Source: Lachnospiraceae bacterium
Lineage (GTDB): Bacteria > Bacillota > Clostridia > Lachnospirales > Lachnospiraceae
Assembly (NCBI GenBank): GCA_024691425.1
Contig: JAILNQ010000101.1
Location: forward strand, 1-64,000
Reading direction: 5' to 3'
Length of the DNA: 64,000 bases
In this document: piece by piece, positions 34,311 through 46,733 of the stretch
Layout of the letters: every line of letters begins with the position of its first letter
Position numbering within the stretch: the stretch's first letter is position 1
Notes under the pieces: model-generated
What the model was told of the DNA's origin: nothing
Databases searched by the model: none
What the model saw: the letters and a program-made list of their open reading frames with translations, nothing else
Program-made: the position numbers and the translations under genes

Positions 34311-35138
34311 ATGGATAAAAAGAAAAGAACACGATTTCTGATCATCATAGGCTGCATTCTGGCCGTCCTTCTTGTCGGGATAATCCTCACCGGAAATCAT
34401 TCCGGCCATGAGGAGCCGATAAAACTCGTCATGAAGGATGCGGTGCTGCATGAAGAGAACCGTATAAACTTTTTGGGGATCATGCTTGTCAATCCCGCAG
34501 TGATCTCCGCATACACGGTCACTGCGATCATTTTCATTTTCGCGCTCATTGTCAGACTGTTCGTGATACCGAGGTTCACAGATGCCCCCGGAAAATTCCA
34601 GCTTCTTTTAGAACAGGCCGTGGGCATTTTTGACGGACTCGCAAAATCGAACAGCCCGCAGAGAAATAAGTTCTTAGGAGCGTATGTGTTCACCGCGGGA
34701 ACTTACATATTCGTCGGAACTATGTTCGAGCTTCTCGGCATCATGGTACCGGCAACGTCAGGAACGGCGATCGCATTGCCCGCTCCGCTTGCCGACATAA
34801 ACGGAGCGATATCTATGGGCGTGTTCTCATACTGCGTCATCCTTTCCGGCGGAATCGCGGGGAATAAGATCAAGGGAGCGCTCGGCACGCTCAAGGATTT
34901 CTCGCTTCCGATATCGATGAGCTTCCGTCTTTTCGGTGCGCTGCTTTCCGGCGCGCTCGTTACGGAGCTCGTTTACTATTACATCACCACAAGCTTTGTC
35001 ATTCCGGTTTTAGTAGCCGTAATGTTCACGATGCTTCATGCATTGATACAGGCCTACGTCCTGACAATGCTCACGGCATTGTTTTATGGGGAAGTATGTA
35101 CTAAGGAGGGGCCCATCGAAGATGGGAAGATTCCTTAG
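34311..35138 (+). CDS. atpB: ATP synthase F0 subunit a
   Basis: Membrane stator subunit that forms the ion half-channels against the c-ring. 275 residues. The essential arginine is in SFRLFGALLSG, and the last helices carry HALIQAYVLTMLTALFYGE. The N-terminus has an extra hydrophobic helix (FLIIIGCILAVLLVGIIL) before the usual core. GAGG 8 nt upstream supports the start. The 3' end, including the stop, lies within a strong mRNA hairpin (35101-35138). Confidence 0.94.
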   Translation: MDKKKRTRFLIIIGCILAVLLVGIILTGNHSGHEEPIKLVMKDAVLHEENRINFLGIMLVNPAVISAYTVTAIIFIFALIVRLFVIPRFTDAPGKFQLLLEQAVGIFDGLAKSNSPQRNKFLGAYVFTAGTYIFVGTMFELLGIMVPATSGTAIALPAPLADINGAISMGVFSYCVILSGGIAGNKIKGALGTLKDFSLPISMSFRLFGALLSGALVTELVYYYITTSFVIPVLVAVMFTMLHALIQAYVLTMLTALFYGEVCTKEGPIEDGKIP

Positions 35139-35178
35139 TGCACCGCGAGCCCGTTTGCGAAGCAAATTCCTAATGGGC
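35101..35178 (+). other. Two tandem mRNA hairpins at the atpB-atpE junction
   Basis: The first (35101-35138) pairs CTAAGGA with TCCTTAG and an inner CCCATC with GATGGG around a GAA loop, and contains the atpB stop. The second (35149-35178) pairs GCCC/GGGC and TTTGC/GCAAA around GAA. Neither is followed by a T-run. Such elements often mark processing or protect the downstream message, which would help make the many c subunits needed per complex. Confidence 0.6.
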
Positions 35179-35216
35179 GAGCAGTCCTTATTATTTTCAA
35201 TAGGAGGAATAAACAA

Positions 35217-35576
35217 ATGAAGAAACTGATCGTCAGAATCGCAGCAGTCCTTATGCTTGTGCTAGTTGTCTCAGCGATCGCATCACCTGTACCTGTACTC
35301 GCCGATGACGGCGCGACAGTTGCAGTTGCGGCCATGTCCGATGAGGCGGCGAACATCCACTCAAAGGCATGGGCAGCCAGCATCGTAATCGCTGTTGTAG
35401 CAGCGGCCGGTGCGATCTCGATGGGTCTCGTTATATGGAAGACCATCGAAGGCATTGCAAGACAGCCTGAAGCAGAAGGAAAGATAAGGACCGCGATGAT
35501 GCTCGGCCTCGTTTTCGTGGAAACGGCCATCATCTATGCTCTTATCGTAGCCATTCTTATCGTATTCGTCTTATAG
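35217..35576 (+). CDS. atpE: ATP synthase F0 subunit c with N-terminal signal-like extension
   Basis: Rotor ring subunit. The C-terminal 75 residues are the usual hairpin of two helices joined by ARQPEA, with the ion-binding Glu in LGLVFVETAIIY. At 119 residues it is about 40 longer than standard: residues 1-29 look like a cleavable signal peptide ending VLA, followed by a short polar stretch. A Thr after the Glu and a downstream Tyr recall Na+-binding rings, but the residue matching Gln32 of the Na+ rings is Met, so protons are more likely. A strong AGGAGG precedes the ATG, and two mRNA hairpins lie upstream. Confidence 0.92.
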   Translation: MKKLIVRIAAVLMLVLVVSAIASPVPVLADDGATVAVAAMSDEAANIHSKAWAASIVIAVVAAAGAISMGLVIWKTIEGIARQPEAEGKIRTAMMLGLVFVETAIIYALIVAILIVFVL

Positions 35577-35594
35577 GAATAGAAGGAGCGCATT

Positions 35595-36092
35595 ATGCCG
35601 TTAAACATCGATCCGCAGCAGATACTGCTGCATCTGTTCAATCTAGTCCTTCTGTTCGGCATCCTCTATGTCCTTCTGTACAAGCCTGTACATGACTTCA
35701 TGGACAAGCGTGAGGAAGAATATGCGAAAAGGGAGAAGAGCACGAAGGATGCTCTTGATGATGCCGAAAAGCTCAAGGCGGAGTATGAGGAAAAAATCCT
35801 TACGGCGCAGAAGGAGACCGCAATGGAGCGCGCTAAAGCGAGCGCGGCCTCGGAATCCGAAAGAGAGAAGATCATAAGCGATGCGCATGAACGTGCCGAC
35901 AAGATAGTCAGCGACGCACGCGACAAAGCGCAGGCGGAACATGACCGCCTGATCGCAAGGGCGCAGAGCGAGATTGCCGAATATGTGTCAAAAGCCGCGG
36001 AAAAGATCGTCATGAGAGAAGGGGATATTGAGGATGATTTTGACACCTTCTTTGAGAGCCAGGAAGTAAAGAAGGATAATGACAATGGATGA
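35595..36092 (+). CDS. atpF: ATP synthase F0 subunit b
   Basis: Peripheral stalk subunit, 165 residues. One N-terminal membrane helix (HLFNLVLLFGILYVLLYKPV) is followed by a long charged coiled coil rich in Glu, Lys and Ala. Length and layout are normal, and there is no fused delta domain at its C-terminus. AAGGAG precedes the ATG. Its end overlaps the start of atpA. In the usual complex its C-terminus binds delta, here represented only by the domain fused to alpha. Confidence 0.93.
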   Translation: MPLNIDPQQILLHLFNLVLLFGILYVLLYKPVHDFMDKREEEYAKREKSTKDALDDAEKLKAEYEEKILTAQKETAMERAKASAASESEREKIISDAHERADKIVSDARDKAQAEHDRLIARAQSEIAEYVSKAAEKIVMREGDIEDDFDTFFESQEVKKDNDNG

Positions 36093-37806
36093 AAAAATGA
36101 CCGCTGTTCTGTACAGCAGCGAAAAACCTTCGGATAAGGATCTGAAGAGACTGGCCGATTTTCTCCTGAAGAAATATGATGAGCCGGTTTCGATAGGATG
36201 GAAGAACACGCCGGAAGTTACCGGCGGGTTCAGGCTTGTTGTCGGAGGAGACGTATATGACTGGAATAAGCAGGGCAGACTGAGGCAGCTTCAGGATGCT
36301 CTTCTTGCGCTCCGGGAGGAACGCGAGGACATCATTCCGCTCATAAAGGATACTCTCATAAACTGGACTCCGACGGTCATGGTGAATGAGATCGGAAAGG
36401 TCACTTCTGTCGGTGACGGTATCGCGACCGTCAGCGGACTTGAGGATACTTCATACGGAGAGATACTTCTTTTCTCCGGAGGAGTAAGAGGCATGGCGCT
36501 TGACCTGCGCCGCGATGAGACTGCCTGCATTCTTTTCGATGCCGAAGAGGAAGTGTGCGAAGGAAGCACCGTAAAGCGCACGGGAAGAGTTGCCGGAGTG
36601 CCTGTCGGAGAAGGATTCCTAGGGCGAGTTGTGGATCCGCTCGGAGTGCCGGTTGACGGACTCGAGGACATTCTTGCCGATGATTACAGACCGGTTGAGA
36701 GCGAGGCTCCCGCAGTCATCGACAGGCAGCCTGTAAACGTTCCGCTCGAGACGGGAATTCTTGCGATAGATTCAATGTTCCCGATAGGACGCGGACAGAG
36801 AGAGCTGATCATCGGCGACCGTCAGACCGGAAAGAGCACGATAATAACCGACACCATACTCAACCAGAAGGGTAAGGATGTCATATGCATATATGTTGCG
36901 ATCGGACAGAAAACTAGCACGGTCGCAAGACTTGTTGATACGCTGAAGAAGAACGGTGCGATGGAATACACGATCGTCGTGAACGCTTCGGCTGCAGAAT
37001 CCGCGCCGCTCCAGTACATCGCTCCCTATGCAGGATGCGCCATGGGAGAGTATTTCATGGAGAAGGGCAAGGATGTGCTGATCGTTTATGATGATCTTAC
37101 GAAGCATGCGATCGCATACCGTTCGATAAGCCTTCTTCTTGAGAGGGCCCCGGGACGTGAAGCTTACCCCGGAGATGTTTTCTATCTTCACTCAAGGCTT
37201 CTTGAGCGTTCCGCGCGGCTTTCGAATGAAAAGGGCGGTGGCTCGCTCACTGCTCTTCCTGTCATAGAGACGCAGGAAGAAGATGTTTCCTCGTACATTC
37301 CGACGAACGTCATATCGATAACGGACGGACAGATATTCCTGTCGGGCGGGCTTTTCAGGCTCGGACAGCGCCCCGCGATAAATGTCGGACTGTCAGTATC
37401 GCGTGTCGGCGGAGACGCGCAGACGAAAGCGATGAAGAAGGCAGTCGGAACGCTGAGGCTCGACCTTGCGCAGTACCGTGAGATGGAAACTTTCTCGCAG
37501 TTCGCGGGCGACATGGATGAAGCGACGAGAAAGCAGATCAAGTACGGCGAAGGCCTGATGAAGATACTCAAACAGAAACAGAACCGTCCCCTGTCGCTTC
37601 CTGAGCAGGTATTCATGCTTGTTATCGCGACAACGGACAGATTCGAGCATTTCGATATCGAAGGCATCGAAGACAGGATAAGAGATATCGCGCGGGTGGC
37701 GATGAAGTCCTGCCAGGATATCGTCATGCGCATAGAGAACGCCGGCGTTATAGATGACGCCGACAAGAAGAGGATCGTGGAAGCGGCGATAAGAGCAAAT
37801 GGCTGA
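36085..37806 (+). CDS. atpA: ATP synthase F1 subunit alpha with N-terminal delta-subunit domain
   Basis: A 573-residue protein. Residues from about 80 onward are a complete alpha subunit (VGDGIATVSGL, P-loop GDRQTGKST near residue 246, about 73 residues later than usual, and VGLSVSRVGGDAQ). Residues about 5-70 match the C-terminal half of the delta subunit: DLKRLADFLLKKYDEPVSI, then GGFRLVVGGDVYDWNKQGRL, the counterpart of the b-binding part of delta. No separate atpH exists and the alpha-binding N-terminal half of delta is absent. ATG at 36085 has AGGA 8 nt upstream; 36079 is too close to it. GGGAGGA at 36314-36320 stands 10 nt before in-frame ATC/ATT codons near the alpha boundary, so a short alpha from a rare start cannot be excluded. 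Confidence 0.93.
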   Translation: MDEKMTAVLYSSEKPSDKDLKRLADFLLKKYDEPVSIGWKNTPEVTGGFRLVVGGDVYDWNKQGRLRQLQDALLALREEREDIIPLIKDTLINWTPTVMVNEIGKVTSVGDGIATVSGLEDTSYGEILLFSGGVRGMALDLRRDETACILFDAEEEVCEGSTVKRTGRVAGVPVGEGFLGRVVDPLGVPVDGLEDILADDYRPVESEAPAVIDRQPVNVPLETGILAIDSMFPIGRGQRELIIGDRQTGKSTIITDTILNQKGKDVICIYVAIGQKTSTVARLVDTLKKNGAMEYTIVVNASAAESAPLQYIAPYAGCAMGEYFMEKGKDVLIVYDDLTKHAIAYRSISLLLERAPGREAYPGDVFYLHSRLLERSARLSNEKGGGSLTALPVIETQEEDVSSYIPTNVISITDGQIFLSGGLFRLGQRPAINVGLSVSRVGGDAQTKAMKKAVGTLRLDLAQYREMETFSQFAGDMDEATRKQIKYGEGLMKILKQKQNRPLSLPEQVFMLVIATTDRFEHFDIEGIEDRIRDIARVAMKSCQDIVMRIENAGVIDDADKKRIVEAAIRANG

Positions 37807-38686
37807 TATCAGAGAGATCAAAATGAGAATGAAATCAGTGGCCGACACCGAGAAGATCACGAAAGCGATGTACATGATCTCCTCGAGCAAGATGCGCAAG
37901 GCCAGGGCCGAGCTTGAGCGCACACGGCCTCATTTTGATGCCCTGAACAATGAGATAAAAAGGATTTTCAGATCGAAATCGAAAATCGAAAGCCCCTACA
38001 TGTACCCTGCAGACGGATCGCACGACCTGCCGGGAGCTTACGCTTACATAGTCGTTACCTCCGACAAAGGTCTCGCAGGTTACTATAACCATGCTGTCAT
38101 AAAGGAATTCGAAAGCCAGATGACCGACCATGAGAGCAGATATTTCATGGTCGGGGACTACGGATGTAAATACTGTGATGCCCTGAAAATACCATATGAT
38201 GATAAGTTCAGGTTCTCAGCGGACAACCCGACCATGCGGCGCACGAGGCTCATGGCCGATTACATTCTTTCGGAATATGATGAGGGACACATATCGAAAA
38301 TCTTCCTCATCTACACCGATCTCGAAAACGGCGTCGTACAGAAGGCCAAGACCGTAAGGCTTCTTCCGTTCCACAGGCGCGAGTTCATGGAACAGGATGA
38401 GAAGGAGAACATCAGGTTTGATTTTCACCCTTCTGCGGAGACTGTTCTGCAGAATATAGTGTACAGCTATGTTGCCGAGTATCTCTACAGCGCGCTCGTT
38501 GACAGCTACTGCTGCGAGCAGGGCGCTAGGATGAATGCGATGGATGAGGCCGACAAGAATGCGGCATCGCTCATGAATGAGCTTCGGCTCGAATACAATC
38601 ACGCCCGGCAGGGGAAGATAACAAGGGAGATAACTGAGATATCTTCAGGTGCGAGGGCACTCAAGAAGAAAAAGAACAGGATATGA
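37799..38686 (+). CDS. atpG: ATP synthase F1 subunit gamma
   Basis: Central rotor shaft, 295 residues. The N-terminal helix (EIKMRMKSVADTEKITKAM) and C-terminal helix (ARMNAMDEADKNAASLMNEL) that form the coiled coil are both present, with the Rossmann-like middle (ITSDKGLAG-type segment VVTSDKGLAGYYN). It overlaps atpA by 8 nt, implying coupled translation. Length is normal. Confidence 0.94.
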   Translation: MADIREIKMRMKSVADTEKITKAMYMISSSKMRKARAELERTRPHFDALNNEIKRIFRSKSKIESPYMYPADGSHDLPGAYAYIVVTSDKGLAGYYNHAVIKEFESQMTDHESRYFMVGDYGCKYCDALKIPYDDKFRFSADNPTMRRTRLMADYILSEYDEGHISKIFLIYTDLENGVVQKAKTVRLLPFHRREFMEQDEKENIRFDFHPSAETVLQNIVYSYVAEYLYSALVDSYCCEQGARMNAMDEADKNAASLMNELRLEYNHARQGKITREITEISSGARALKKKKNRI

Positions 38687-40518
<1,832 letters not shown>

Positions 40519-40571: not shown

Positions 40572-43500
40572 ATGAAAATTAAACGTTTCATTTCCTTAAT
40601 ACTGTCGATGCTGCTGATCCTTTCACTTACGGCCGGAAGCGTCGGCGCTGCTGAACCTGTCGATACGGATGCATCTTTTGCGTATACGGATATTTCGGAA
40701 GAAGATTCAGAAGATGCTGAAGAATATGCAGATGATTTCCAGACGGGCAGTGAGGATCATGAGACTGCGGATGAAGAAGCTGAGGACGAGGAAGCTGATC
40801 GTCTTATGAGTGTTGACGAGGAAGATGCGGGGTCAGATGACGGCGAAGATTTTGCTCTCGGTTATGTGCCGGCTCCTTTTGAGAACGAGTATGAAAGCCG
40901 CAATACCGGAGACGGAGACGGTTTCTTCGATGTTACGGAAAGAAAATACATATCTCCGGAAGTACTGACGCTTCCCTCGCGCCACCAGGGGATATACGGA
41001 ACCTGCTGGGCGCATGCGACGATGGCCGGAGTCGAAACGTCTGCAATAAAACACGGCGTCCTCCAGCCTGACGGAGAAGCTGCGGATGAGACGATCGACA
41101 TGTCAGAGCTTCATCTTGCCTATTTCACGCAGAAGGGACTTGAAGCATACGATCCTCTCGGAGGCCTTGACGGCGACCGGAACGGTGTTCCTGCAGGCGA
41201 GGATTTTCTGGATAACGGAGGATCTCCCGAAAATGCCGCCAATATGTTCGCGTGCTGGACCGGTGCGGCATCTGAAGAGAAATATCCGTACAGTGAAGCC
41301 TCAAAGACATACACCTCCGACAGAGCCAATTCAATCGATGATGCGATGCATCTGCGGGGATATTACATCGCCGATCCGAAGACGGACCGTAACGGTGTGA
41401 AGGAGCTTGTAAAGAATTACGGCGCCGTAACGGTCAGTTTCTGTGCGATAAGAAACAATGGCGAAAAGATCGGAGGTCTGAAATACAATAACGTTTACAG
41501 CGAAGAATACAACAGCTATTTCATTCCGAAGGACGGCATTGAGAGCAATCATTCCGTTGCCATAGTCGGATGGGATGATGATTTTCCGAGAATGAATTTT
41601 GCAAACAGCGCAAAGCCGGCAGGGGACGGAGCATGGCTCATAAGGAACAGCTGGATGGACGGAAACTTCATCGACGAAGACGGAAACCCCATAGGAACTG
41701 ATGCGGGATTCAGGTCATATTTCTGGCTTTCATATTTTGACAAGAGCATAGAGGACTCCGGCATCGCGTTCGAGATGGATACCGAGGACAATTACGATCA
41801 CAACTATCAGTATGATGGAGCGATGATCAATGCACCTTGCAGCGGAAGGTCGAAGTATGCGAATATTTTCACCGCCGCATCTGACGATCCCGAGAGCTTA
41901 AGGGCCGTATATTTTGCGACATACAGTGCGGACTTTGACTGTACGATAGATGTTTATACCGGTGTTACCGGAACGGATCCGCAGTCAGGTACACATGCAC
42001 TGTCCGGAAAGGTCAAACATGTCACGTTTCCGGGAGGATACACGGTTGAGCTCGATTCCCCGGTAATGCTCACGAAGGGTGAGAAATTCTCTGTTGTTCT
42101 GACGGTTCCTGCGGATGTGAAGATATGCAGAGAATATACAAATACCAAATATTACGTTACGACTGCCCATACCGAACCGGGAAGGGGCATGAGTTACATA
42201 CCGCAAACCGCTTCCTGGGATGACGCTTCAGATGACGGAGCGTACGGCGATTACCGCATAAAAGCGTTCACTGCTGACGAATCTGCCATCCAGCCGACAG
42301 TCACCTTTGATCCGAACGGCGGCACATGCGAAACGGAGAGTAAGACGGTCACATATCTGAAAAAATACGGCGAGCTTCCCGAGGCAACGCGTGACGGCTA
42401 CACGTTTGACGGATGGTTCACTGAAGTTTCAGGAGGATCAGAAGTCACCTATTCAACGAAAGTAACTTCGAAAACTGACCATACAGTTCATGCTCACTGG
42501 ACACCGTGCAAGTACACGGTCAGCTTTGATGCCAACGGCGGAACGTGCGAAACGGAGTCGAAGGAGGTCACATACGGCGGCACTTATGGAACACTTCCTG
42601 ATGCAACGCGTTCTAACTATGATCTTCAGGGATGGTTCACTCTGGCCGAAGGCGGAGATGAGATCACGAGCAGCACTGTGGTTGACATAACTTCAGAGCA
42701 GACACTTTATGCGCACTGGCTCGGAAATGAGATCAGGGTTGATTTTGACGCCGACGGCGGAACATGCGATCCGGAATATAAGATGGTCAACTACATGGGC
42801 ACATACGGTGTGCTTCCGGTTCCCGAAAAGCCCGGATGTAAGTTCCTCGGATGGTATCCGGAAGGTGCGGCCGCAAAGAAGGTAGAGGAGTCGACAAAGG
42901 TCGAGACCGATGCGGGTCATACTCTTCTTGCGAAATGGAAGATCATAGAATATGGCATCAATTTTGATGCTAACGGCGGAACATGCAAAACAGAAAGCAT
43001 TACCGCAACTTACGGAAACGCATATGGCACGCTTCCGACACCGGAAAGAGAGAACTTTGTGTTCGACGGCTGGTTCACTTTGGCCGATGGCGGAGAAAAG
43101 ATAGAAGCGGATACAGTTTTCTGCGGAACTGACGATCAGACGCTCTATGCCCACTGGCACGGTGTGAGCGTCAGAGTATCTTTATATGCGGATGGCGGAA
43201 CGGTAACGCCGGCATCGTTAACCGTCTATTATGATGCGCCTTATGGCACTCTTCCTGAGCCTGTCAGAGAAGGATGCGAGTTCTCGGGATGGTACACTTC
43301 GATGATCGGCGGGACAAAGGTCACAGCAACGACGAAGGTCCTGAAGACAACAGCCCATACTCTCTATGCTCGCTGGAACTCACATCAATATAAAGTCTAT
43401 CTGAATCCGAACGCTGAAGATGCAACCTGCCCTCGCGAGTATGTTGTGGTTGATTCAGGAAGCACCTATGGAGAACTTCCCGCGGCAGTCCGCGAAGGGT

Positions 43501-46500
43501 TTGCTTTTGCGGGATGGTACACTGCACCTGAAGACGGAACATGGATAACGCCGTCAACACGCGTCAATCTTACTGCAGACCAGACGCTTTTCGCGCATTG
43601 GACGACAAAGCCGTTTACCGTATATTTTGATGCAAACGGCGGAACAGTCTCCCCCGAGCAGAAGGATGTCATAACAGGGCTTCCTTACGGCACGCTCCCT
43701 GAACCGGTGTACACCGGATATGCATTCCTCGGCTGGTTCCTTGACCTTACGGATGATGATCCTGTAACAAAGGATACAGAAGTTACTGCAGTGGATGAAC
43801 ATACGCTCCATGCGAAATGGCGCGGAGCCCCGTATACCGTGACATTCGATCCGAGGGGCGGCATAGCGGAATTTCCAAGTAAGACCGTATATTTCAAAGA
43901 CGTATACGGTACTCTTCCGGAAGCGGAAATGGACGGGTATGATTTTCTCGGATGGTACACCAGCATCGCCGGAGGCGAGCATATACATGAGGATACGGCA
44001 GTTACGATAACCGCGGCACAGACGCTTTATGCACACTATTCAAAGAAGAGCGTCACGGTAACGCTTGACGGTAACGGCGGAAAGTGGAACGGGAAAGCGA
44101 CAAAGAAGATCGTGAAGGAATGGGGAACCGTTCTTTCGGCAGATGATCTTGCGGCTCCTTCATATGACAGAAAGCATGCCTTCACGTCATGGTACAGGGA
44201 AAGCGGCTGCATACATCTGTTTGATACGACCGAGCCGGTGAAGGGCGATGTGACGATCTTCGCAGGATGGGATGAGTCCGGAGCGCTCGATTTCGAAGGC
44301 TTCATGATAGAAGGACTTGACGGAGAGTTTGAATACACCGGAAGCGCTATAAAGCCGAATATTACCGTATATTACGGTGACTACGAACGCGAGCTTACCG
44401 AAGGTGTTGACTATTCGGTTGCATATAAGAACAACATCAATGCAGCTGACCGTAATGCGGTCAGTAAGTCCGGAGCGCTCGCAGCTCCGATGGTGACCGT
44501 TACCGGGAAAGGCAATTACAGCGGAACGCTGTCAGAGACTTTCACCATAAGCCCGATCCCGATGAGCATGGCTTACACTGATTCGGACAGGCTCATACAG
44601 TCCGGAGTTTCTGATGCGAATATCATCCTTGCGGGAACAGGAAAGAGCCAGAAGGTATCGCCTGTATTTACCGTCACGCTTTCCGATGGAAGGAATGTCA
44701 ATCTGAAGAAGGGTACGGACTATACTTTAGAGCGCGAGGAATTCACCGATGCCGGCACTTATGTCGTTAAAGTTTACGGAAAAGGCAATTATTCAGGGCA
44801 GCGAGAATTCGTTGTAAGGATAAGGGATGTTGCTCATATAAGCAGAGCTGTATTCCCGGCTATTCCTGACCAGCCGTATGATGCGGGCTTTTCCTATATA
44901 CTTGCAGGACTTGCCGATGACGGACAGAAGCGTGCTACCAACAGGGACGGCAGCGTGTTTGAATGGCATATCACGGACCCGGCTACAAAGAATGAGCTCG
45001 TCTTCGGAAAAGACTATGAGCTTGCTTACGATAACAATTCCGATGCCGGAACGGCCGGCGTGACGGTGCTCGGCAAAGGCAGCTATACAGGCACTGTCAG
45101 GAAGACGTTCGCCATCACCGGAATCATAATGAAGAATGTGAAGATATCAGGGGATCCGGCAGTAGTGGAATACACCGGTTATCCGGTGAAGATAGCAGGC
45201 TCTGAGACCGGAACTGATACAGGCGGAGTGAATCTTACCGCATATGTTCCGGGAATCGGCAATGTTCTTCTCGAAAAGGGAACAGACTATACGGTTTCAT
45301 ATTCGGACAATATCAATCCTGGAAATGCATGCGTAACCTATACAGGAAAAGGCAGAGTATCCGGTTCTATCAAGAAGACATTCAAAATACGTCTGTTCGA
45401 TATGTCGAAGGCCGGTGATAAGATCACCGTCAGATGGCCTGACGGCTCGCAGGTTTGGGCGGGAAGCAATGTTCCCGTATATGAGTGCACCAAGACGGCA
45501 TTAAAGCCGGAACCCGTTGTGATCTATACATATAACGGCGCTGAAATCTGTCTTGCTGCAGGCAAGGATTACACGCTGTCATGGTCGAACACCGTAAAGC
45601 CCGCGGCATATAATGCCGCAAAGAATGCTCCTACGGTCAATATTGTCGGTAAGGGCAACTTTATGGGCATGATCACGAGGACGTTCACGATAACGAACGG
45701 AAGATTTGCTTCATTCGTGGCCGGAGATGTTGCATACCAGAAGGAAAAGACAGGCCTGCATCTTAAGACGAAAACCGTTGTGAAAGACAGCGCAGGCACG
45801 GAGCTTAAGGCAGGTACGGATTACTATTCGCTGAATGACAAAACTGTTCCGGCGGATTTCAGATTCGTATCGTTCGATTTTGATGATTCAGAAGTGAATG
45901 GAAAGGTTCTTGTAAAGAGCGGCAGAAACTGGGTAGAGAAGAATGTATCGGCAGGGGAAGCAGTTGACAGCTCTTACTGCATACTTCCGGGAACAAAGCT
46001 AAGGGTGACGGTTTACGGCAAGGGAAGCTATGAAGGTGAGTCGGCAGCGGCTGAGTTTTCGATAGGAGAGATCGATTTCTCGAAAGCTTCGGCATCTATA
46101 GGAGATATAACTTATACCGGAAAACCGATCACGGCTGATGATCTGAAACCGGCAGTCAAGGTTGAGATAAAGGTCAATAACGTGAAGCGCAATCTTCTGT
46201 GCGACAGCGATTTCGTGATCGACCCGCGCTCTTTTATCAACAATGTCAACGCGGGAACTGCAAAAGTCACCTTGAGAGGAAAGCCTGAAAGCGGCTATGC
46301 GGGCGAGAAGACTGTATCTTTCAAGATCGTTCCGGATAAGCTGAACTGCACCGTTTCCTATGAGGGCAATAACGGTGATGCTTCGTATGGCCTGATAAAA
46401 GCCGTCATGGCCGCAGATCCTGACGGTAAGAAGACATATGCATATTACAGCACTCATTACCGGGTGAGCGGCACGATGAAGGATTCGTCGACACCGATAG

Positions 46501-46733
46501 GAGGAAAGCTTACGAGAAATGCATTCAAGGTGCAAAAATACGATGACAGGACGAACAAGTGGGGGCCGTTGCCTGCATCATCTAAGATAAAGTTCAAGGG
46601 CTGGACAGCCGATGCGGAAGGCACCGGGAGACTGTATGCCGATGCGGGCGATTTTCTCCCATCATGGGCAGAGAGGCTTCTTAACCGCTATAATACTTGG
46701 ACGCTGCATGCTCAGTGGGAAGCAGGAAAATGA
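40572..46733 (+). CDS. Large secreted papain-like (C1A) protease with InlB-type repeats
   Basis: A 2053-residue exported protein. A signal peptide covers residues 1-27, then an acidic Asp/Glu-rich stretch to about 95. A C1A-type peptidase domain follows with Gln139, Cys145 (YGTCWAHAT), His327 (NHSVAIVGWDD) and Asn359 (IRNSW), the full papain set. A beta-rich domain comes next, then eight InlB/Listeria-Bacteroides repeats plus one divergent copy (about 575-1235). About five Ig-like modules with GTDY/GKGNYSG motifs follow, and a final InlB-like remnant. No LPXTG sorting signal or C-terminal membrane helix is seen, so anchoring may rely on the repeats or the protein is released. Likely role: extracellular proteolysis or surface attachment. 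The substrate is unknown. Confidence 0.88.
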   Translation: MKIKRFISLILSMLLILSLTAGSVGAAEPVDTDASFAYTDISEEDSEDAEEYADDFQTGSEDHETADEEAEDEEADRLMSVDEEDAGSDDGEDFALGYVPAPFENEYESRNTGDGDGFFDVTERKYISPEVLTLPSRHQGIYGTCWAHATMAGVETSAIKHGVLQPDGEAADETIDMSELHLAYFTQKGLEAYDPLGGLDGDRNGVPAGEDFLDNGGSPENAANMFACWTGAASEEKYPYSEASKTYTSDRANSIDDAMHLRGYYIADPKTDRNGVKELVKNYGAVTVSFCAIRNNGEKIGGLKYNNVYSEEYNSYFIPKDGIESNHSVAIVGWDDDFPRMNFANSAKPAGDGAWLIRNSWMDGNFIDEDGNPIGTDAGFRSYFWLSYFDKSIEDSGIAFEMDTEDNYDHNYQYDGAMINAPCSGRSKYANIFTAASDDPESLRAVYFATYSADFDCTIDVYTGVTGTDPQSGTHALSGKVKHVTFPGGYTVELDSPVMLTKGEKFSVVLTVPADVKICREYTNTKYYVTTAHTEPGRGMSYIPQTASWDDASDDGAYGDYRIKAFTADESAIQPTVTFDPNGGTCETESKTVTYLKKYGELPEATRDGYTFDGWFTEVSGGSEVTYSTKVTSKTDHTVHAHWTPCKYTVSFDANGGTCETESKEVTYGGTYGTLPDATRSNYDLQGWFTLAEGGDEITSSTVVDITSEQTLYAHWLGNEIRVDFDADGGTCDPEYKMVNYMGTYGVLPVPEKPGCKFLGWYPEGAAAKKVEESTKVETDAGHTLLAKWKIIEYGINFDANGGTCKTESITATYGNAYGTLPTPERENFVFDGWFTLADGGEKIEADTVFCGTDDQTLYAHWHGVSVRVSLYADGGTVTPASLTVYYDAPYGTLPEPVREGCEFSGWYTSMIGGTKVTATTKVLKTTAHTLYARWNSHQYKVYLNPNAEDATCPREYVVVDSGSTYGELPAAVREGFAFAGWYTAPEDGTWITPSTRVNLTADQTLFAHWTTKPFTVYFDANGGTVSPEQKDVITGLPYGTLPEPVYTGYAFLGWFLDLTDDDPVTKDTEVTAVDEHTLHAKWRGAPYTVTFDPRGGIAEFPSKTVYFKDVYGTLPEAEMDGYDFLGWYTSIAGGEHIHEDTAVTITAAQTLYAHYSKKSVTVTLDGNGGKWNGKATKKIVKEWGTVLSADDLAAPSYDRKHAFTSWYRESGCIHLFDTTEPVKGDVTIFAGWDESGALDFEGFMIEGLDGEFEYTGSAIKPNITVYYGDYERELTEGVDYSVAYKNNINAADRNAVSKSGALAAPMVTVTGKGNYSGTLSETFTISPIPMSMAYTDSDRLIQSGVSDANIILAGTGKSQKVSPVFTVTLSDGRNVNLKKGTDYTLEREEFTDAGTYVVKVYGKGNYSGQREFVVRIRDVAHISRAVFPAIPDQPYDAGFSYILAGLADDGQKRATNRDGSVFEWHITDPATKNELVFGKDYELAYDNNSDAGTAGVTVLGKGSYTGTVRKTFAITGIIMKNVKISGDPAVVEYTGYPVKIAGSETGTDTGGVNLTAYVPGIGNVLLEKGTDYTVSYSDNINPGNACVTYTGKGRVSGSIKKTFKIRLFDMSKAGDKITVRWPDGSQVWAGSNVPVYECTKTALKPEPVVIYTYNGAEICLAAGKDYTLSWSNTVKPAAYNAAKNAPTVNIVGKGNFMGMITRTFTITNGRFASFVAGDVAYQKEKTGLHLKTKTVVKDSAGTELKAGTDYYSLNDKTVPADFRFVSFDFDDSEVNGKVLVKSGRNWVEKNVSAGEAVDSSYCILPGTKLRVTVYGKGSYEGESAAAEFSIGEIDFSKASASIGDITYTGKPITADDLKPAVKVEIKVNNVKRNLLCDSDFVIDPRSFINNVNAGTAKVTLRGKPESGYAGEKTVSFKIVPDKLNCTVSYEGNNGDASYGLIKAVMAADPDGKKTYAYYSTHYRVSGTMKDSSTPIGGKLTRNAFKVQKYDDRTNKWGPLPASSKIKFKGWTADAEGTGRLYADAGDFLPSWAERLLNRYNTWTLHAQWEAGK
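42292..44275 (+). repeat. Tandem array of nine InlB-type repeat units within the protease gene
   Basis: Units of about 70 codons recur, each with FDxNGGT near the front, YGTLP in the middle, GWFT after it and YAHW at the end. Units 1-8 are close; unit 9 is divergent. Third-position differences between units show they are old rather than recently expanded. Confidence 0.85.

Follow-up and report, generated by a model that had tools for sequence, protein, structure and literature searches.

A natural F-type ATP synthase operon of Lachnospiraceae with the b-binding domain of subunit delta fused to subunit alpha, and the number of peripheral stalks it may support

The window analysed here, a stretch of 64,000 nucleotides from a Lachnospiraceae bacterium (assembly GCA_024691425.1, contig JAILNQ010000101.1, positions 1 to 64,000), carries an F-type ATP synthase operon in which the alpha subunit bears at its N-terminus the b-binding C-terminal domain (CTD) of subunit delta. 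As read from the genes, the delta N-terminal domain (NTD) is lost, no other delta is encoded in the operon, and subunit c has an H+-type motif. The best overall explanation is probably that of an H+-type enzyme with one to three peripheral stalks and a raised H+/ATP ratio.

The fusion gene has the following parts.
36079..37806, + strand: delta-CTD/alpha fusion gene, a single open frame of 575 residues from ATG 36079
36097..36303, + strand: delta (OSCP) CTD with the signature VYDW (PF00213 positions 103-172; fold match)
36304..36387, + strand: short linker and retained alpha N-terminal helix (IIPLIKDTLINW), placed by alignment with PDB chain 9jc1_I
36388..37803, + strand: alpha beta-barrel, nucleotide-binding and C-terminal domains (PF02874, PF00006, PF00306)

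An alternative start at ATG 36085 (573 residues) is better placed behind GAAGGA at 36071-36076, and the fusion begins within the last codons of the subunit b gene (35595-36092). The original prediction, made by reading this sequence, was that the delta CTD is fused to alpha and that the alpha-binding half of delta is missing, and it had proposed a search with the OSCP/delta family as a check. Both points are borne out by that search: Pfam OSCP (PF00213) matches residues 7-75 above its cut-off (27.4 against 22.3 bits), and the match begins only at position 103 of the profile and runs to 172 of 172, the alpha-binding N-terminal half of delta being absent from the protein. The alpha profile TIGR00962 matches residues 82-566 (697.5 bits, cut-off 484.5). 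A fold predicted for residues 4-125 from a 22-row alignment has a mean predicted local distance difference test score (pLDDT) of 73, and about 85 over the delta domain. When it was used in a fold search, chains of ATP synthase entries took ranks 1-47 among the 50 PDB matches listed, and those recovered by sequence as well are delta, OSCP or b-delta chains or the engineered delta-alpha chain. The alpha N-terminal helix appears to be kept after the short linker, its helix being predicted at low confidence. A combined b-plus-delta model (predicted template modelling score 0.54) gave secondary structure but no contacts and was left unused. As the fusion recurs in many genomes, it is neither an assembly artefact nor a chance occurrence.

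The same layout has been engineered in Bacillus PS3 FoF1 by deleting the delta NTD and fusing the delta CTD to alpha, the NTD on the threefold axis having been reasoned to limit F1 to one stalk (Ueno et al. 2025; PMC12229609). The engineered enzyme has up to three stalks, each with a canonically bound subunit a, and particles with 0, 1, 2 and 3 stalks amount to 15, 51, 26 and 8%; its H+/ATP ratio is 5.8 +/- 0.4 versus 3.0 +/- 0.2, it makes ATP at a weaker proton gradient, and a rule proposed from it puts the H+ moved per turn at the number of c subunits times the number of a subunits (PMC12229609). The engineered chain, 9jc1_I, aligns continuously to residues 9-531 of the window protein. Among the 2 and the 51 PDB sequences that the N-terminal part hit, it is the sole chain spanning both domains, with an E-value of 3.6e-12 and a profile score of 81 bits.

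By this comparison, the operon would make a complete H+-type F1Fo ATP synthase whose delta, cut to its b-binding CTD, is carried covalently by alpha. All three alphas would bear an anchor, and because the delta NTD is off the threefold axis, each anchor could take its own b2 pair and its own subunit a; the enzyme would therefore not be held strictly to one stalk and may have one to three. Under the rule proposed from the PS3 enzyme, H+/ATP would be raised, so that ATP could be made at low proton motive force (pmf) or more H+ pumped per ATP in reverse, and the fused enzyme would work alongside the canonical ATP synthase of the genus, which is Na+-type. Since the domain order, the loss of the NTD and the short linker are those of the engineered enzyme, assembly with several stalks is, by analogy, slightly favoured. 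The original prediction had held that three stalk-binding domains would exist for one b dimer and that the peripheral stalk must be built differently. The latter appears right, and three anchors per F1 would be expected if the alphas are all alike, but the single b dimer was an assumption, as the same layout, when engineered, gives up to three (PMC12229609).

Several points weigh against an enzyme of this kind. The stalk number cannot be read from sequence, the ion type rests on a motif, and on the grid the majority of the engineered particles showed a single stalk or none at all (PMC12229609). Moreover, ten of the fusions read (loci L049, L050, L051, L058, L090, L091, L101, L139, L163 and L164) keep the NTD, and as three NTDs could not all fit the axis, fusion alone need not mean several stalks. 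It is conceivable, with a clearly smaller probability, that the enzyme has a single stalk, only one of its three anchors being used because the membrane part or the supply of b and a is limiting, and that the tether made the NTD redundant. The recurrent loss of the NTD among fusions would be expected if the tether replaces it, and the NTD-keeping fusions as well as the proportions of engineered particles with one stalk (51%) or none (15%) in cryo-electron microscopy (PMC12229609) are consistent with such an enzyme. However, free-standing delta CTDs without an NTD exist (L158-L161), which argues that NTD loss needs no covalent tether, and the two spare anchors would have no obvious use, though they are unavoidable with identical alphas.

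The survey of relatives that the original prediction had proposed found fusions in many genomes of Clostridia. A fusion frame is present in 21 of 98 relatives (99 genomes with the window's own assembly, G000), and all 21 were read, 17 having only the CTD and 4 the NTD as well; a separate delta accompanies the fusion in 20 of them, and G088 (96% complete) has the fusion only. A GTDB contig scan, of which the best 80 of 353 relatives were considered, gave 34 uninterrupted fusions and 46 separate or interrupted genes. The 34 fusions, all from Clostridia or Bacillota by record title, comprise 28 with one CTD, 2 with two CTDs and 4 with an NTD; in 20 of these genomes nothing beyond the fusion matches PF00213 (17 of the CTD type, 3 with an NTD), and the others have a near full-length separate delta (12 genomes) or a partial one (G100 and G119). 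Of 195 genomes sampled evenly across the class, G000 not counted, PF00213 reveals a delta-alpha fusion frame in at least 22, of which 18 have the CTD only and 4 a longer delta; 17 of the 22 have no other match to this profile. Five further genomes of this sample, all read, encode the CTD separately in frames of 81-113 residues. Fifteen of the 22 were read, G152, G162, G187, G215, G222, G263 and G315 resting on frame length, and G222 scores under the Pfam threshold. These 22 are a minimum: PF00213 finds only the separate delta in G114 and G117, although L078 and L081 are fusions, and G147 and G185 share delta places with these two genomes. The single-contig genomes G160 (99% complete, a member of the window's clade), G207 (99%) and G283 (100%) each match PF00213 only in the fusion, and together with 18 genomes besides G000 that show no second match to this profile they indicate that the layout persists without a separate delta. 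Among named strains, Shuttleworthella satelles DSM 14600 has the fusion only, and Faecalibacterium gallinarum JCM 17207 has the fusion and a separate delta. An apparent split delta in S. satelles (PF00213 positions 22-170 with a TAA) proved to be a read-through of b.

Other arrangements of delta were also encountered. In L158-L162 (genomes G183, G234, G148, G144 and G219), a free-standing delta of about 75-110 residues that consists of the CTD only precedes alpha, and in L158-L161 its gene lies between b and alpha; it is the only PF00213 match in G183 (98% complete), G234 and G148, and others are present in G144 and G219. The ten NTD-keeping fusions carry a short NTD plus CTD on alpha and measure about 670-690 residues. 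At the N-terminus of the L156 fusion (G239), three tandem copies of a stretch of ~20 residues (NEMSDNEFRSRVASATNG) stand before the delta CTD. PF00213 also matches frames of 231-302 residues in G138:C196, G159:C402, G193:C13, G219:C22, G198:C1 and G297:C3, possibly other delta fusions.

In an alpha tree of 62 rows (25 of 68 core rows dropped, 19 canonical rows added), the alphas of the fused lineage, together with those of L093, L097 and L134, which sit behind a separate delta of the lineage's own kind, are separated from 19 canonical alphas of relatives and 5 others (support 100/100). Within the lineage (57 of 68 rows), presence of the NTD changes four times, each change being forced by well-supported branches. 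A wider tree of 47 of 50 rows, in which the alphas of L158, L160 and L161 that follow free delta CTDs were lost in trimming, needs seven changes, at least five of them forced. CTD-alpha fusions (L145, L146, L148-L155) lie elsewhere in the alpha tree as well; their own grouping is weak (85/57), and they are possibly an independent fusion. The fused state needs four changes there, at least three of them forced, each of which may be either a gain or a re-split. The delta signatures of these fusions are mostly canonical-like, and L145 and L146 come from single-contig genomes. As all stages are found in living genomes, a series from separate delta through full delta-alpha to CTD-alpha can be seen. 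The NTD changes are apparently repeated losses, a direction that we infer, regain being unlikely.

Fused delta domains and b subunits differ together from their canonical counterparts. In the window's clade the fused CTDs carry YDW and b ends in YDxFL or FDxFF, whereas canonical delta and b in three congeners have VDSS and SLIEETL, respectively. The b subunit has 155-176 residues in 48 of the 50 loci where it was read. In L088 and L089, alpha carries two tandem delta CTDs (L088:4246-6246 and L089:2402-4408; 667-669 residues), and b is extended to 229 and 231 residues and has two C-terminal YDx(F/Y)L motifs. The second b segment resembles the first, with scores of 42 and 55 where shuffled sequences average ~23-24, and 0 of 500 shuffles scored as high. 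Being closely related, L088 and L089 represent a single event. The b subunit of L096 has two motifs only under a loose pattern (VEKLL). This coordinated doubling of anchor and b motif provides the best indication from sequence that each fused CTD binds b. We regard as evenly balanced the wider proposal that fusions arose more than once by the joining of delta to alpha and loss of the delta NTD, that one lineage doubled both anchor and b motif, and that the window encodes a low-pmf H+ enzyme beside a one-stalk Na+ enzyme.

A short alpha had also been proposed, to be made from an internal start at the domain border.
36314..36336, + strand: GGGAGGA and ATC/ATT, proposed internal start; not conserved, rejected

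Were each F1 to contain one fused and two short alphas, by internal initiation or proteolysis, a single anchor would be restored; this is very improbable. The site is indeed present, with GGGAGGA at 36314-36320 before rare in-frame start codons (ATC/ATT at 36331/36334), and all 13 sequences of the window's clade retain an in-frame ATG at 36379, just past the alpha N-helix. However, among 55 fused loci (L063, on the same contig as L032 of G001, having been dropped as a duplicate), a five-base Shine-Dalgarno (SD) core lies no more than 20 nucleotides upstream of border codons in only 4 (7%), about the background rate of these genes (1754 in 32717 codons, 5.4%); the window's clade has such a core in 2 of its 13 sequences. 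At the border, synonymous sites of these 13 are conserved less than average (z -0.5 to -1.2), and raised conservation is confined to the gene ends (z 5.4 and 2.5), where the fusion overlaps b and gamma; as the raised values coincide with overlaps, the test sees constraint, though it is not shown to recognise starts. The ATG at 36379 has no SD-like word before it, and Met has but one codon. A start codon with a short SD-like word occurs between YDW and VGDG in 19 of the 55 loci, at scattered places and with no background rate for comparison. An internal translation start was thus rejected on the 55 loci, the SD core being about background and the border not conserved.

The claim that atpH is missing holds for the operon and the assembly but not as a property of the organism. 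The operon encodes no delta besides the fusion. In the 127-contig assembly, where a check for atpH had been proposed, the fusion is the sole PF00213 match, and a profile of the delta NTD found nothing at E 0.1. G000 has one subunit a gene and four ATP-synt_ab matches, namely this alpha, this beta, FliI in a flagellar cluster and Rho; the last two were identified by eye from their sequences and neighbouring genes, and as they account for the other PF00006 matches, a second F1 was rejected. This metagenome-assembled genome is 83.8% complete. A full separate delta (frames of about 182-196 residues) was found in 35 of 36 congeners searched, and the fusion in 13 of the 36, each time together with the full delta. 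In three congeners an M29-peptidase-like gene follows the canonical operon, and in the two with a contig long enough on the other side a dCMP-deaminase-like gene precedes it (both named by eye); the best matches to these genes in G000 reach no more than 29% or 31%. The canonical neighbourhood thus seems unassembled, and true loss of the operon is unsupported, as both flanking genes are gone too; given this, the incompleteness and the full delta in 13 of 13 fused congeners, absence from the organism cannot be concluded. A search for a free delta NTD gave no credible candidate in G000 or in 18 further genomes whose fusion lacks the NTD and is the only PF00213 match, G109 giving two weak matches (E 0.02 and 0.04) in larger frames; all four controls (G001, G045, G067 and G133) were found, and the 18 genomes have one subunit a gene each. 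That the full delta of a canonical operon also caps the fused F1, the fused domain being accessory, would suit the 13 congeners that encode both but is highly unlikely, as in many genomes, including three assembled as a single contig, no delta besides the fusion was found, and the signatures differ (YDW with YDxF or FDxF versus VDSS with SLIEETL in three congeners).

For the ion type, we used as a ruler the position in subunit c that we take to hold the Na+ ligand Gln. The window c has Met there, and 59 c subunits from 60 loci of the lineage have Met (42) or Ile (17), with no Gln; the c of L078 was unread, and one of the 60 reads (Asn, EAISSY) was taken as an unrelated frame, as none of the 59 has this motif. 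Canonical c subunits of relatives have Gln in 31 of 31 read, and the canonical locus was read in five of the 13 fused congeners (G001, G004, G006, G015 and G031), where c is of the Na+ type. By this motif the fused enzyme would be H+-type, since Met or Ile replaces the Gln, and the canonical enzyme Na+-type. H+ and Na+ circuits in Pseudobutyrivibrio have reportedly been studied. Rumen butyrivibrios with both Ech and Rnf have been described (PMC4478896).

The operon runs from 34311 to 40518 in the order a-c-b-deltaalpha-gamma-beta-epsilon, and its other features are as follows.
34311..35138, + strand: atpB, subunit a, 275 residues (PF00119, 68 bits); divergent, with the conserved Arg motif (FRLFG) kept
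35217..35576, + strand: atpE, subunit c, 119 residues (PF00137 at residues 53-115)
35595..36092, + strand: atpF, subunit b, 165 residues (PF00430, 66 bits)
36039..36053, + strand: C-terminal aromatic motif FDTFF of b, a putative contact with the delta CTD
37799..38686, + strand: atpG, gamma (PF00231, 280 bits)
38723..40108, + strand: atpD, beta (TIGR01039, 787 bits, cut-off 463)
40105..40518, + strand: atpC, epsilon with a C-terminal helix domain (PF02823, PF00401)

A match to TIGR01146 scored 244 bits (cut-off 194). With alpha and beta over curated cut-offs and gamma, epsilon, a, b and c all present, the gene content is that of a complete F-type ATP synthase. Judged by eye, the window c has a signal-like N-terminal extension. 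Fo is remodelled in the window's clade as a whole, where c has such an extension and measures about 115-158 residues by first start codon, and subunit a scores 58-74 bits with PF00119, compared to 150-176 for three canonical and three sister-clade a subunits. Just downstream of the operon, a frame of 2053 residues (40572-46733) looks papain-like in its N-terminal stretch and holds many repeats that resemble one another, both judged by eye.

Natural enzymes of this layout are already in print, in one operon and two UniProt entries: Ueno et al. report an NTD-less fusion in an Acidaminococcus fermentans operon, where they expect a multi-stalk enzyme, and name UniProt G4Q3K6 and A0A1I2C5T3 as natural cases (PMC12229609). 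In the open-access papers searched, a scope outside which most subscription journals, preprints and supplements fall, there is no report of such a fusion in Clostridia, nor of a doubled anchor with a doubled b motif or free-standing delta CTDs. New here are the fusions in at least 22 of 195 genomes of the class, the three single-contig genomes in which the fusion is the only delta found, the apparently repeated loss of the delta NTD, and the two-CTD lineage with its doubled b motif. According to the same authors, all ATP synthases so far have a single subunit a per complex, and natural H+/ATP ratios vary through the c-ring (PMC12229609). If delta-CTD/alpha enzymes have several stalks in nature, a second gear-changing route would have evolved in fermenters living on small ion gradients. 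The loci listed, including those of the named strains Shuttleworthella satelles and Faecalibacterium gallinarum, turn a prediction from the Discussion of that article into enzymes that can be purified and their stalks counted.

Among known systems, the N-ATPases resemble the window enzyme in lacking a separate delta gene and in occurring as a second F-type operon of a genome. Their gene order, beta-epsilon-a-c-b-alpha-gamma (PMC5709465), differs from that of the window. Assignment to this group was rejected, the alt_F1F0 scores falling under their cut-offs (alpha 616.8/750.5, beta 572/752 and b 47.8/224.7 bits). Acidaminococcus fermentans, which presumably belongs to a class other than the window's, is likened here by description and not by sequence. 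By its authors' statement, it shares the delta-alpha fusion without the delta NTD (PMC12229609). In the mycobacterial b-delta fusion, delta is likewise joined to another subunit and its CTD fold matches that of the window, but it is fused to b and present in one copy per enzyme, so that the stalk number stays one (PMC8617483); the window b is a separate frame of 165 residues and not a b-delta fusion. The closest likeness is to the engineered PS3 enzyme, in which the NTD is gone, the delta CTD stands on the alpha N-terminus with a short linker, and no separate delta is present (PMC12229609); none is found in the window's operon or assembly, though congeners have one elsewhere. Unlike the construct, which has the PS3 Fo and from which the epsilon C-domain was removed (PMC12229609), the window enzyme is natural and keeps that domain, and has a divergent a and an N-terminally extended c. 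In anatomy, as far as the genes tell, it is a natural counterpart of the engineered enzyme, a delta-delta-N-alpha FoF1.
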